From Roseomonas populi (GTDB lineage: Bacteria; Pseudomonadota; Alphaproteobacteria; Acetobacterales; Acetobacteraceae): 64,000 nucleotides of DNA. The notes under the pieces were generated by a model. That model did not search any database, was not told the DNA's origin, and was given only the letters and a program-made list of their open reading frames with translations. The position numbers were made by a program, and so were the translations under genes. Positions 40,167 through 43,449 of this stretch are shown one piece after another; positions within the stretch are counted from its first letter, which is position 1, and every line of letters starts with the position of its first letter. The stretch covers positions 62,001 through 126,000 of the forward strand of contig NZ_JANJOU010000004.1 of NCBI RefSeq assembly GCF_024594815.1. Direction: 5' to 3'.

Positions 40167-40218
40167 GGCCGGGGACTTCGCGCATTTCCCGCGGCCTGTG
40201 CAGCCCGGCGGGCACGAA

Positions 40219-40250
40219 AAAGGGCCGCCGGACATCTCCGGCGGCCCTTT
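40219..40250. terminator. strong 14-bp hairpin terminator
   Basis: AAAGGGCCGCCGGA (40219-40232) pairs perfectly with TCCGGCGGCCCTTT (40237-40250) over a 4-nt loop. On the minus strand the second arm ends with AAAs and the first with TTTCGTGC. It sits downstream of the small secreted protein gene (stop at 40281) and upstream of the glycosyltransferase, so it separates the two minus-strand genes. Confidence 0.8.
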
Positions 40251-40280
40251 CCTCGGCGCCCCGCGGTGCGGGGTGGCGGA

Positions 40281-40490
40281 TCAGCCGTGCTGGCCGCCGC
40301 CGCCCGTCGCGCCGCTCTGCTCCAGGATCGTCTGCCCGGAATTGCCGGCCAGGGCGGTGCGGCTGTCCGCGGCGACCCAGCGGCCGGAAGCGGTCGCGCC
40401 CTCGGGCACGCGGACCTGGTCGGCGAAGGCGGGGGCGGCAACGGAGCCGATCAGGGCGGCGGCGAGGGCAAGGGTGCGAAGGTTCATCAT
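40281..40490 (-). CDS. small exported protein with LEQSGATGGGGQHG tail, copy 1
   Basis: A 69-residue protein: a clear signal peptide (LRTLALAAALIGSVAAPAFA), a short variable middle, and the C-terminus GQTILEQSGATGGGGQHG. The last 14 residues are identical to those of the gene at 42152-42367, 1.9 kb away. The rest is not similar, so the tail is probably the functional part. Mature size would be about 47 residues. The ATG at 40490 has AGGA upstream; a second ATG follows at once. CCAGGGAAATG (40539) and CCAGGAAATG (40597) upstream recur before copy 2. No family is recognised. Confidence 0.75.
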   Translation of the reverse strand: MMNLRTLALAAALIGSVAAPAFADQVRVPEGATASGRWVAADSRTALAGNSGQTILEQSGATGGGGQHG

Positions 40491-40640
40491 GGCTGCATGT
40501 CCTGGGTGGATCGGGCGGCAGGGTGCCGCCCTTTGTTGCCAGGGAAATGCGCCCGGAAGGTCTGAAGTTCCAACGCAGGGGATGGATGACACCTATCCAG
40601 GAAATGGATGGTCCGTCCTGAAACCCTGAGGAGGCGGTGA

Positions 40641-41888
40641 TCAGCCCCGGCGGAAGCGGGCTACGAAGAAGCCGTCCATCCCGCCCTTCTCCGCCCAGAG
40701 ATCGGGCCGCGTCCGCAGCGCGCCCTGTGCCGTCACGGCCTCCTCCAGCCCCGGCACCTCTTCCGGCCGCACGGGCTCGGGCGTCAGGCCCAAGGCGGCA
40801 ATGCGGGCGAGGTGGGCCTCCCCTTCCTCCGGCTGGAGGGAGCAGGTGGCGACCACCAGCCGCCCCCCCGGCGCCAGCAGGCCGGCGGCAGCCTCGATCA
40901 GCGCCGCCTGGGTCTCGGTGAGCTTCGGCACGTCCTTCGGGCGGCGGAGGAGCTGCACCTCCGGGTGGCGGCGGATGGTGCCGGTGGCGGTGCAGGGGGC
41001 GTCCAGCAGCACGGAGTCGAAGCGGCCCTGGTGCCCGGCGGACCAGTCCAGGGCGTCCGCGACCACCAGATCCGCGTCCAGCCGCAGCCGCGCCAGGTTC
41101 TCCCGCAGCCGTTCCGCGCGGTGGGGGTCCTTCTCCACGGCCGTCACCTTCGCGCCCATCGCGGCGAGCTGGGCAGTCTTGCCACCGGGCGCGGCGCAGA
41201 GATCGGCCACGCGCCCGCCGGGGGAAGGGGCAAGCAGCCGGGCGGGCAGGCTGGCCGCGGCGTCCTGCGCCCAGAACCCGCCCTCGGCGAAGCCGGGGAG
41301 TTCCGTGATGCGGGTGCCCGGCGCCAGGCGGGCCGTGCCGTTGGGCAGGATCTCCGCCCCTTCCGGCGCGGCGGCGCCGGGGGCGAGGGAGAGGTCCAGC
41401 GGCGCGGGGCGGGTGTGCGCCTCCGCGATCGCGCGCACCTTCGGGCCATAGGCGGCGTGCCAGGCGGACCAGAGCCAGGCGGGGGTGTCCAGCCGGGCGG
41501 CGTCCAGTTCCTCCAGCGCGGCGGGGCCTTCGGCGGCCACCTTGCGGAGCACGGCGTTCACCAGCCCGGCCAGGGGGCGCGGCGCCAGCGCAACCGCTTC
41601 CGCCACCGCCGCGTGGGCGGGCGTGCCGAGGAGGAGCAGGTCGGCCGCGCCGATGCGGAGCGCCTGCATGGCCGGCGGCGAGGGCTCCCGGCGCAGATAG
41701 GGTTCGAGCACCGCGTCCAGGCTGCCCAGGCGGCGCAGCACGGCGGCGGCGATGCGGTGGGCGGCGGCGCGATCCCGCGGCTGCAGATGGCCGGGCAGGG
41801 CATCCAGCGCCTCGTCGAGCGCGCGGCGGCGCTCCAGCACGGCGGTGAGGAGGGCGAGGGCGGCGGAGCGGGTGGGGTTGGACGGCAT
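40641..41888 (-). CDS. rsmB: 16S rRNA m5C967 methyltransferase
   Basis: A 415-residue RsmB. The N-terminal NusB-like helical domain (RSAALALLTAVLERRRALDEAL) precedes a Rossmann SAM domain with DLCAAPGGKTAQLAAMGA. The catalytic Cys pair is in DAPCTATGTIRRHPEV (motif IV) and ATCSLQPEEGE (motif VI). It methylates 16S rRNA using S-adenosylmethionine. The start at ATG 41888 follows family length; ATG 41909 adds seven residues. The open frame continues upstream through the hairpin-repeat array but is not likely translated there. The gene is flanked on both sides by the twin small exported proteins. Confidence 0.93.
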   Translation of the reverse strand: MPSNPTRSAALALLTAVLERRRALDEALDALPGHLQPRDRAAAHRIAAAVLRRLGSLDAVLEPYLRREPSPPAMQALRIGAADLLLLGTPAHAAVAEAVALAPRPLAGLVNAVLRKVAAEGPAALEELDAARLDTPAWLWSAWHAAYGPKVRAIAEAHTRPAPLDLSLAPGAAAPEGAEILPNGTARLAPGTRITELPGFAEGGFWAQDAAASLPARLLAPSPGGRVADLCAAPGGKTAQLAAMGAKVTAVEKDPHRAERLRENLARLRLDADLVVADALDWSAGHQGRFDSVLLDAPCTATGTIRRHPEVQLLRRPKDVPKLTETQAALIEAAAGLLAPGGRLVVATCSLQPEEGEAHLARIAALGLTPEPVRPEEVPGLEEAVTAQGALRTRPDLWAEKGGMDGFFVARFRRG

Positions 41889-41949
41889 GCTGGGGGCGGC
41901 TTGGCGCATTTCGCGCGGAATGTGCAGGTCTTTTGCTGCATGCCCGGCC

Positions 41950-42071
41950 ACGCGCTTGCGTGGCCCCCCCACGCGCTTGCGTGGCCCCCCCACGCGCTTG
42001 CGTGGCCCCCCCACGCGCTTGCGTGGCCCCCCCACGCGCTTGCGTGGCCCCCCCACGCGCTTGCGTGGCCC
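41950..42071. repeat. six tandem 21-bp hairpin-forming repeats
   Basis: The unit ACGCGCTTGCGTGGCCCCCCC occurs six times from 41950; the last copy is cut after 17 bases. Each CCACGC-GCTT-GCGTGG makes its own 6-bp hairpin, so the array is a row of hairpins joined by C-runs. It lies between the start of rsmB and the end of the second small exported protein gene, which are on the same strand. The unit length keeps a reading frame open on both strands (PTRLRGP or GGPRKRV), but coding is unlikely. Confidence 0.9.
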
Positions 42072-42081
42072 TTGATGCGGC

Positions 42082-42110
42082 GAAGGCCGCCAGCGGGGCT
42101 GGCGGCCTTC
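42082..42110. terminator. 13-bp hairpin terminator after small exported protein copy 2
   Basis: GAAGGCCGCCAGC (42082-42094) pairs perfectly with GCTGGCGGCCTTC (42098-42110) around a GGG loop. It lies 42 bases downstream of the minus-strand gene at 42152-42367 and just before the 21-bp repeat array, so it probably stops that transcript. Confidence 0.75.
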
Positions 42111-42151
42111 GGTCCAAGACCTAAACCGGGGCGATCGCTCCCGGGCGGGGA

Positions 42152-42367
42152 TTAGCCGTGCTGGCCGCCGCCACCCGTGGCGCCGCTCTGCTCCAGCAGG
42201 GTCTGGCCACCGTACTGGTAGCCCGTGCCGGAGGTGTCGGCCTCGCTGGCCACGCCCTCGCCGCCAACGCTCCAGGCGCGCGCGGCATGGGCATCCTGCG
42301 AGAGGACGGGCGTGAGCAGGGCAGCGGCTAGGCCAAGAATTCCGAGGGTCTTCGTAATGCGCGACAT
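42152..42367 (-). CDS. small exported protein with LEQSGATGGGGQHG tail, copy 2
   Basis: A 71-residue protein with a signal peptide (KTLGILGLAAALLTPVLS, cleavage near AHA), a Gly/Ser-rich middle and the C-terminus GGQTLLEQSGATGGGGQHG. The tail equals that of the gene at 40281-40490. Mature size would be about 43 residues. The upstream DNA has ATAATA just before the ATG and CCAGGGAATG at 42457, like copy 1. No known family fits. It might be a secreted signal, a metal-binding peptide (C-terminal Gln-His-Gly) or a surface component. Confidence 0.75.
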   Translation of the reverse strand: MSRITKTLGILGLAAALLTPVLSQDAHAARAWSVGGEGVASEADTSGTGYQYGGQTLLEQSGATGGGGQHG

Positions 42368-42504
42368 TGTATTATCTCATGCGTGAATGGCGGCGGCACC
42401 GTGTCGTCGTCTTGCCGCCCTGATATCGGCGCATGCTGCACCGCACACCACCCCGGCCAGGGAATGGGTGCCATTCGCTTGGTGGATGGAACTCGCGCGA
42501 TCCT

Positions 42505-42546
42505 GATTAGCCCTGTCCGATTAGCCCTGTCCGATTAGCCCTGTCC
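42505..42546. repeat. three tandem 14-bp repeats giving stop codons in all six frames
   Basis: GATTAGCCCTGTCC is repeated three times (42505, 42519, 42533). Because 14 is not a multiple of three, the TAG on the plus strand and the TAA on the minus strand fall in all three frames of each strand. The first minus-strand copy supplies the stop of the DMT transporter gene. Confidence 0.85.
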
Positions 42547-43449
42547 GGCCGCCCGCGCGCGGGCCTGTGCCTGGAACAGCAGGAAGAGCCCGACCAGGGT
42601 CAGGACTCCACCGGCCAGGTCGGCCCAGCCCAGCACCTCGTCCAGCACAGCCCAGCCGATCACGGCGGCGACCGGCGGGGCAAGGAGCTGCAGCGCGGCG
42701 GCCGTGGAGGGCGGGAAGCGCCGGAGCATGATGAAGAGCAGCGCGTAGCCGCCGACCCCGACGACGGTGACGCTGTAGGCCAGGCCGAGCCAGGCATGGG
42801 TGCTGGCTCCCGCCGGGGCCGGGCCGCCGAAGGCGATGGCGAGAGGAAGGAGCATGGCGGCGCTGACAAGGCTCTGCCCGGTGCTGGCGGTCCAGAGGTC
42901 CACGCGGCCGCGTGCCGGGGCGAAGATCAGCAGCCCCGCCGCCTGGGAGACGGCGCCGAGCAGGGCGAGGAGGACGCCGAGCGCCTCGGCGGGGCCGTGG
43001 CCGCCGGCATGGTCCTGGAGTTGCCCGGCCAGCCGCACGCCGCCCAGCAGCGCCACCCCGGCCCAGCCGAGCGCCAGCCCGATCCAGGCGAGGCCAGAAG
43101 GACGGCGGCGCAGGAAGGCCGCTTCCCCCAGCGCCACCACCAGCGGCGTAGCGGCGCTGATGAGCGCGACGAGGCCGGAGGGGATGAGCGACATGGCCCA
43201 CCAGGAGAGGGCGAGGTAGCCGCCGGTGCCGAGCAGCCCCAGCAGCGCCACGCGCCCCCGATCCCCCGGCGCCGGCATGCGGGAGCGGGTGGCGGCGGCG
43301 ATGGCCAGCAGCAGCGGGGCGGTGAGGAGGAAGCGGATGGCCAGCGCCCAGAAGGGCGGCCATTCCAGCACCACGAAGCGCGCCGCATTGAAGGCGGAAC
43401 CCCAGATGAGGACGAAGACGGCGGCCAGCAGCAGGTCGGCCGGCTTCAT
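42535..43449 (-). CDS. EamA/DMT-family transporter
   Basis: A 304-residue membrane protein with about ten helices in two EamA halves. Family motifs include LIWGSAFNAARFVV, YLALSWWAMSLIPSGLVALI and STAAALQLLAPPVAAVIGW. Drug/metabolite transporters export amino acids, sugars or nucleosides; the substrate is not predictable here. The ATG at 43449 overlaps the upstream gene's stop (ATGA). The stop lies inside a 14-bp tandem repeat. Confidence 0.9.
   Translation of the reverse strand: MKPADLLLAAVFVLIWGSAFNAARFVVLEWPPFWALAIRFLLTAPLLLAIAAATRSRMPAPGDRGRVALLGLLGTGGYLALSWWAMSLIPSGLVALISAATPLVVALGEAAFLRRRPSGLAWIGLALGWAGVALLGGVRLAGQLQDHAGGHGPAEALGVLLALLGAVSQAAGLLIFAPARGRVDLWTASTGQSLVSAAMLLPLAIAFGGPAPAGASTHAWLGLAYSVTVVGVGGYALLFIMLRRFPPSTAAALQLLAPPVAAVIGWAVLDEVLGWADLAGGVLTLVGLFLLFQAQARARAAGQG

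Follow-up and report, generated by a model that had tools for sequence, protein, structure and literature searches.

A dispersed family of short, probably exported proteins with a common C-terminal tail and a mostly shared promoter in Roseomonas

The window analyzed here, a 64,000-nucleotide stretch of Roseomonas populi (assembly GCF_024594815.1, contig NZ_JANJOU010000004.1, positions 62,001 to 126,000), contains two short genes, P0001 and P0002, that lie on either side of rsmB. As a sequence-only reading of this DNA had described, both products have signal-peptide-like N termini; both genes are on the minus strand. The two genes belong to a protein family marked by a fixed C terminus, a shared promoter, and a restricted taxonomic range, features of which we are close to certain. 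Judged from the sequences, the family is particular to the genus, its members end in a common tail, its operator is nearly exclusive to it, and the members scanned matched no named family. The combination of a common tail and a mostly common control sequence suggests a coordinated response. Our favored reading, to which we assign a probability of about 0.4 for the whole chain, is that the genes are regulated together and that their products are exported, disordered, and docked on one envelope partner by the constant C terminus.

The last 14 residues of P0001 and P0002 are identical, as had been noticed before, and 17 of the last 18 agree. Across the 14 terminal codons there are two synonymous changes and none that alters an amino acid, and the gene ends share 88% identity over 60 nt (E 4e-16, small database). 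The genes are not a pair of twins, as first thought: they belong to a family scattered over this genome, which encodes 13 intact members (69–117 amino acids). A search of the genome for the tail (LxxSGATGGxGQHx plus stop) yields 15 places, which correspond to the 13 intact genes and two damaged copies; because so many places encode it, the sharing of the tail is not due to chance. Both damaged copies (L015, G000:C16:37580-37792, and the fragment L014, G000:C20:48364-48492) have a TAG stop where the tail should read Gln. L015 shares 97% identity with L010 across 211 bp of coding sequence and possesses none of the promoter of L010. A tenth family promoter, together with its leader, runs off a contig end (L191, G000:C19:72668-72773), and the true copy number is therefore probably at least one higher.

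For comparison across genomes we used 68 extracted genes, which do not represent every relative: the fragments L014, L135, L155 (contig end), L163, and L164, one spurious frame, and copies found solely by a profile for an alternative, NFD-type ending are omitted. The canonical 14-mer is located at the extreme C terminus in 57 of these genes. The other 11 comprise one truncated copy, three genes whose tail deviates slightly, and seven that have an NFDxxxQG-type ending. Residues L1, G5, T7, G8, G11, and Q12 of the tail are fixed in 57/57, and position 13 is occupied by His (43), Gly (9), Gln (4), or Ser (1). The fixed residues were used to recognize the 14-mer, which leaves the codons as the free test. 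Indeed, codons are mixed at fixed and near-fixed residues (Thr: ACG 30, ACC 26, ACT 1; Ala: mostly GCG 27 and GCC 25), indicating that the protein, and not the DNA, has been kept. The constraint on the tail claimed earlier is thus borne out, both by its canonical form in most genes and by synonymous codon change at fixed residues. The pN/pS ratio over all 14 tail columns of the 13 own genes is 0.54, a mild value reflecting the variable columns; the low amino acid change in eight “core” columns is circular, as these were picked as conserved.

In an alignment of the 13 intact proteins (P0002 numbering), L58, G62, T64, G65, G68, and Q69 are invariant, as is A28; A26 is found in 90% or more. The N-terminal segment is signal-peptide-like in all 13 by eye and is followed by a short variable middle, often with the block [GP]ATAS-x-W...RTPLA. 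This middle block is separable from the tail. The same middle is joined to an NFDMSRQGA-like ending in L148, L149 (two genes), L153, L154, and the two-repeat forms L179 and L180, and some members, for example L159, combine the tail with another middle and an upstream region of unrelated sequence. The NFD-type profile, which also catches tail-type members via the common middle, has matches at E ≤ 1e-4 in 7 of the 299 genomes from the bacterial family, five of them from this genus. L180 (G000:C8) and L179 (G301:C52) contain GP[TA]A..W...RTPLA twice and terminate in the alternative F-D-L-x-S-Q-G-G, and by eye their upstream regions feature GGAA-rich repeats. An AlphaFold2 prediction from 13 sequences assumes no confident fold (mean pLDDT 53); its one helix, at residues 5–17, is the signal region.

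Despite the differences between the proteins, the upstream layout is common to most copies. A single expression describes 41 of the 68 upstream regions, and these can be aligned across the operator with no gap; 22 rows had been put aside by eye ahead of this alignment, and the 41 are drawn from the remaining 46. Their consensus is ATYC-N7-GRAT-N7-ATYC, followed by TGG at positions 38–40 and GCATAT at about 60–65 (−35- and −10-like). The expression demanded AT at 1–2, AT at 14–15, and T at 24, and these columns are not independent evidence; the five rows missed by the expression keep the same fixed positions (26.7–37.9 bits). With a matrix derived from the 33 other-genome rows, the eight own-genome rows score 18.8–50.0 bits. 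Across the window, this matrix recovers both family promoters (44.7 bits for P0001 and 28.5 bits for P0002), their reverse reads at 8.8 and 1.7 bits, and otherwise values of at most 0.9 bits. Among the 22 set-aside rows, it detects degenerate sites in L150 (18.3 bits) and L148 (14.0 bits) and gives 9.0 bits for one L149 gene and at most 2.5 bits for the other 19. The CCAGGGAAATG-like sites that had been proposed as the shared upstream elements turn out to be fragments of other elements: the site at 40539 overlaps the −10 region of P0001 and the bases after it, the site at 40597 falls within the P0001 operator, and the site at 42457 overlaps the third half-site of P0002. It is the operator consensus given above that is conserved.

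A 72-nt sequence model (R1) comprises 37 of the 41 rows, the spacing-variant L013, L167, L171, and L175 being left out. Both promoters of the window are rows of this model (E 4e-11 for P0001 and 9e-7 for P0002), with zero and one mismatch to the operator pattern, respectively. Genome-wide, the model identifies 10 sites at E ≤ 8.1e-4, and all of them belong to the family, nine in front of intact genes and one at the contig-end leader. Seven of these sites are rows of the model, and three (L013, L017, and the contig-end site) are not. The next site has an E of 0.04; the scan scored 150 of 10,126 first-look candidates, and matches from E 0.04 on were not individually examined. The 27-bp operator alone, at up to one mismatch, occurs at 11 sites in the genome, nine of which are family sites, and its reversed pattern at none. 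One of the two non-family sites lies within a long reading frame, and the other is located about 280 bp before an unrelated frame. At the strict threshold, the promoter layout is found in front of this family only. The leader pattern GACGACGACA-TGCCGCCGCC, at up to two mismatches, occurs at four places in the genome, three of them exact and each before a family gene and one elsewhere, versus five for the reversed control; it is therefore specific only when exact. A peptide-coding upstream reading frame in this leader was considered and rejected, as frames and stops vary between copies by eye.

The genome-wide and database searches for the tail that the sequence-only reading had called for reveal relatives outside this genome, and a tail confined to one genome, the outcome named as speaking against it, is not what was found. 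Within the genus, a profile search detects members in 11 of 15 genomes (E ≤ 0.05). At E ≤ 1e-5, there are 66 matches with variant tails counted, 15 in this genome and one to 10 in each of ten others. At E ≤ 0.01, 43 of 299 genomes of the bacterial family pass; outside the genus, all matches except G205 (E 6e-19) have an E of 3e-4 or weaker, are often partial, and were not counted as members. The pattern SGATGG[GA]GQ, which misses tails departing from it, occurs in 94 stretches from 84,980 species genomes, of which 10 were confirmed, all from Roseomonas or Pararoseomonas. A mobile or viral origin was rejected: P0002, the only query, has no plasmid match, and none of 87 pattern stretches from viral contigs was confirmed as a relative.

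That the family could not be recognized from its sequence agrees with the library scans. None of seven proteins scanned in each of Pfam-A and NCBIfam reached a cut-off, with a best E of 0.12. The seven were P0001, P0002, and L009, which are three of the 13 intact tail-bearing proteins, L180, also from this genome, and L148, L177, and L179 from relatives. The search of solved structures (PDB) gave a single, unconvincing match (E 3.7), and searches of open-licence papers found nothing on the tail string or on such a set of small secreted proteins in Roseomonas.

Several genomic slots, judged by nucleotide matches and a DMT transporter protein query, are shared between species. The P0001 slot between rsmB and a glycosyltransferase gene is occupied in G302 (L129) and G305 (L139). 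The P0002 slot between rsmB and the DMT transporter gene is occupied in G202 (L178), and L162 of G301 adjoins rsmB on the same side. The slot of L016 is common to G302 (L134) and G305 (L142), with one flank also found at L147, L167, L171, and L175, and the slot of L017 is common to G305 (L136). At the same time, there are recent copies such as L020 and L021, which are 93% identical over 438 bp. The shared slots and the recent copies together indicate that the family is older than the species and still duplicating. A RiPP precursor would have modification and export genes beside it; the identified neighbors are ordinary (rsmB, glycosyltransferase, DMT transporter, chvI, chvG, and pckA), and most others are recorded solely as reading frames.

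Table 1. Coordinates of the two family genes, their control elements, and rsmB within the window
Feature	Position	Strand	Basis or remark
P0001, 69-amino acid family member	40281..40490	−	Signal-peptide-like N terminus (MMNLRTLALAAALIGS...FADQVRVPEGATASG...SRTALAG...LEQSGATGGGGQHG)
Conserved 14-codon tail of P0001 (LEQSGATGGGGQHG)	40284..40325	−	Sequence comparison
5′ leader of P0001, hairpin GGGCGGCA-CCC-TGCCGCCC	40491..40537	−	Fold z −2.2; some subgroups without hairpin
Shared promoter of P0001	40538..40609	−	Operator ATCC-N7-GGAT-N7-ATCC (40583-40609), −35-like TTGGAA, −10-like GCATTT
Hairpin and T5 run 3′ of P0001, likely terminator	40215..40280	−	z −5.1
P0002, 71-amino acid family member	42152..42367	−	Sequence comparison; divergent middle without RTPLA block
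Conserved 14-codon tail of P0002 (LEQSGATGGGGQHG)	42155..42196	−	Sequence comparison
5′ leader of P0002, holding GACGACGACACGGTGCCGCCGCC	42368..42415	−	Upstream comparison
Shared promoter of P0002, weaker match	42416..42487	−	Operator ATCC-N7-GAAT-N7-ATTC (42461-42487)
rsmB, 16S rRNA m5C967 methyltransferase; neighbor, outside the system	40641..41891	−	NCBIfam E 8e-84, under that model's cut-off

Strong terminators had been claimed for both genes of the window. This holds for P0001, which is followed by a long hairpin with a T5 run, and not for P0002, where a strong hairpin (z −3.4) is present without a T4 run within 120 nt past the stop; a simple terminator scan lists neither. Within the family, a hairpin and a T4 run within 120 nt past the stop are found in 25 of 68 genes. 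The window also features two tandem repeats near these genes: just upstream of rsmB, 5.9 perfect copies of CCACGCGCTTGCGTGGCCCCC, a 21-bp unit that contains a palindrome (41948-42071), and, where the DMT transporter gene ends (3′), 3.1 perfect copies of GATTAGCCCTGTCC (42505-42547).

In the reading that we favor, one activator would bind ATCC-N7-GRAT-N7-ATCC just upstream of the −35 element and turn on the gene set together. The products would exit the cytoplasm via Sec and probably remain largely unfolded. The constant tail would do the work, as a motif for docking or attachment that one partner in the envelope recognizes, while signal peptides and middles drift. One position in the genome bears on the regulator. 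In 6 of 15 genomes, a cassette of promoter, gene, and hairpin (by eye) separates the gene for a ChvI-like response regulator from that for a ChvG-like kinase. The kinase of this genome, the only copy scanned, matches NCBIfam ChvG at E 4e-121, under the cut-off, and pckA is located nearby here. This placement points to the envelope-stress system and suggests a tie of the family to that circuit. At some loci, chvI is by eye followed by other genes, namely by a c-type cytochrome-like gene (CGNCH) instead of chvG in L224 and L225 and by a GntR-like regulator in L228.

Several observations weigh against this reading. The promoter is present in front of nine of the 13 intact genes, and L011, L012, L018, and L019 lack it (−7 to −18 bits). 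A shared promoter might also travel with cassette duplication, as in L020/L021, and need not reflect selection. The low pLDDT is weak proof of disorder, given that the prediction used 13 short sequences. The tail partner, the expression, and the location are all putative parts of the proposal. As to the regulator, the only operators within 1.5 kb on each side of 15 chvI loci are the six cassette promoters, and none is located before chvI. By eye, the operator resembles neither TTGC-N3-GCAA nor GCC-N8-GCC, the ChvI motifs quoted for Caulobacter and Sinorhizobium meliloti in the available portion of PMC9731502, nor the CenR motif TGA-N8-TGA in the corresponding portion of PMC9275681. The 11-bp S. 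meliloti motif (PMC3687685) and the 14-bp Brucella BvrR motif (PMC9491525), the letters of which are not in the portions at hand, stand outside this comparison. The LysR-like gene adjoining L011 (by eye), the one such gene recognized next to a copy, was rejected as the master regulator: at E ≤ 1e-40 it has matches in 6 of 15 genomes, four of them without the family, and no relative in 9 of the 11 family-bearing genomes.

Small periplasmic regulators act on envelope-stress sensors in other systems. The chvI–chvG cassette would also fit an effector set of ChvG/ChvI, with ChvI itself binding the operator and the proteins acting as periplasmic buffers or feedback ligands of the sensor. In line with this, the response regulator shares 96–100% identity with the query in the 11 family-bearing genomes versus 90–93% in the four without the family. 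On the other hand, in five of these 11 genomes the gene that directly follows chvI is not a family gene. The operator is an inverted-repeat array that differs from the ChvI motifs cited above, and none of the 15 loci has it before chvI. Moreover, 190 ChvI sites are given for Caulobacter in the accessible part of PMC9731502, compared with an operator that serves one family. On balance, we consider this explanation unlikely.

Secreted signals, metal-binding peptides, matrix components, and processed precursors, the roles offered by the sequence-only reading, would each be a candidate. The proteins might instead be precursors of secreted peptides, with an exported protein being cut to free its C-terminal 10–14 residues as a signal or antagonistic peptide and the many copies raising the dose. 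The conserved part is indeed the extreme C terminus with a nearly fixed end, the protein is short and its fold is not confidently predicted, and most copies share the promoter. Among the identified neighbors, which are not all neighbors and vary by locus, there is no protease, dedicated exporter, or receptor, however, and thirteen copies of nearly one peptide per genome would be unusual for a signal. We regard this possibility as distinctly unlikely. Still less likely are selfish or drifting cassettes, that is, promoter–gene units that multiply by duplication and in which recent copying or gene conversion maintains the tail. The recent pairs L020/L021 and L010/L015, the TAG in the tail of two copies, and mere fragments such as L135 and L163 would be expected from such units. 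They would not account for slots common across species (chvI–chvG, both sides of rsmB, L016, and L017), for tail differences that are synonymous, or for the tail being kept by members with other middles and without the promoter. Metal or ligand binding by the Gly-rich tail is very unlikely, since the His near the C terminus, present in 43 of 57, is Gly, Gln, or Ser in 14 of 57 while the six fixed residues stay constant, and the tail possesses neither Cys nor a His cluster.

A bolder form of the docking proposal is a genus-specific peptide system, in which one dedicated regulator would control a dozen dispersed genes, all delivering the same C-terminal SGATGGGGQH to the envelope or out of the cell; one receptor or one anchoring enzyme there would read the free C terminus. 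We hold this version to be improbable; if true, the tail would be a portable C-terminal address or signal new to description. The family in any case offers an unusually clean handle: its C-terminal motif is fixed, its genes are marked by an operator, and its genomic slots are conserved, one of them in the middle of the ChvG/ChvI operon. This makes regulator, partner, and purpose directly testable.

Two regulatory systems invite comparison. The family resembles the ChvG/ChvI system of Alphaproteobacteria in having one of its cassettes embedded between chvI and chvG, near pckA, and departs from it in its operator sequence, as far as the motifs in the available portion of PMC9731502 go, and in the absence of an operator before chvI. 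The geometry of the operator is reminiscent of LysR-type sites: four-base inverted half-sites are separated by N7, a further half-site follows 7 bp on, and this spacing is the rule for the tandem ATAG-N7-CTAT sites of OxyR quoted in the excerpt of PMC8787470. Unlike those sites, the half-sites of the family are ATCC/GRAT and not ATAG/CTAT, and a fourth half-site is not conserved. T-N11-A, named as a LysR-class feature in the excerpt of PMC11739112, is present as T2-N11-A14 in 41/41 aligned sites, where the expression required it, and in 5/5 missed sites; taken alone, it is a weak criterion. In the 41-row consensus, the further half-site occupies 23–26 and the −35-like element about 37–42. The candidate regulators are a LysR-type protein by geometry and ChvI by position.

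Families of small exported proteins with many copies per genome are already known, and bacterial genera can hold expanded sets of tiny exported proteins that are unnamed in databases and whose roles are unknown. The DUF4148-type proteins of Burkholderia, also of unknown role, are the closest in organization, with many paralogues of short exported proteins per genome. They differ in their host group and in sequence, as the DUF4148 Pfam model matches none of the seven proteins scanned at E up to 10. Phr-type pheromone precursors are likewise short and exported and carry their functional part at the C terminus. In contrast to the divergent Phr peptides, which are encoded beside their receptors, the family described here repeats one tail at dispersed loci.

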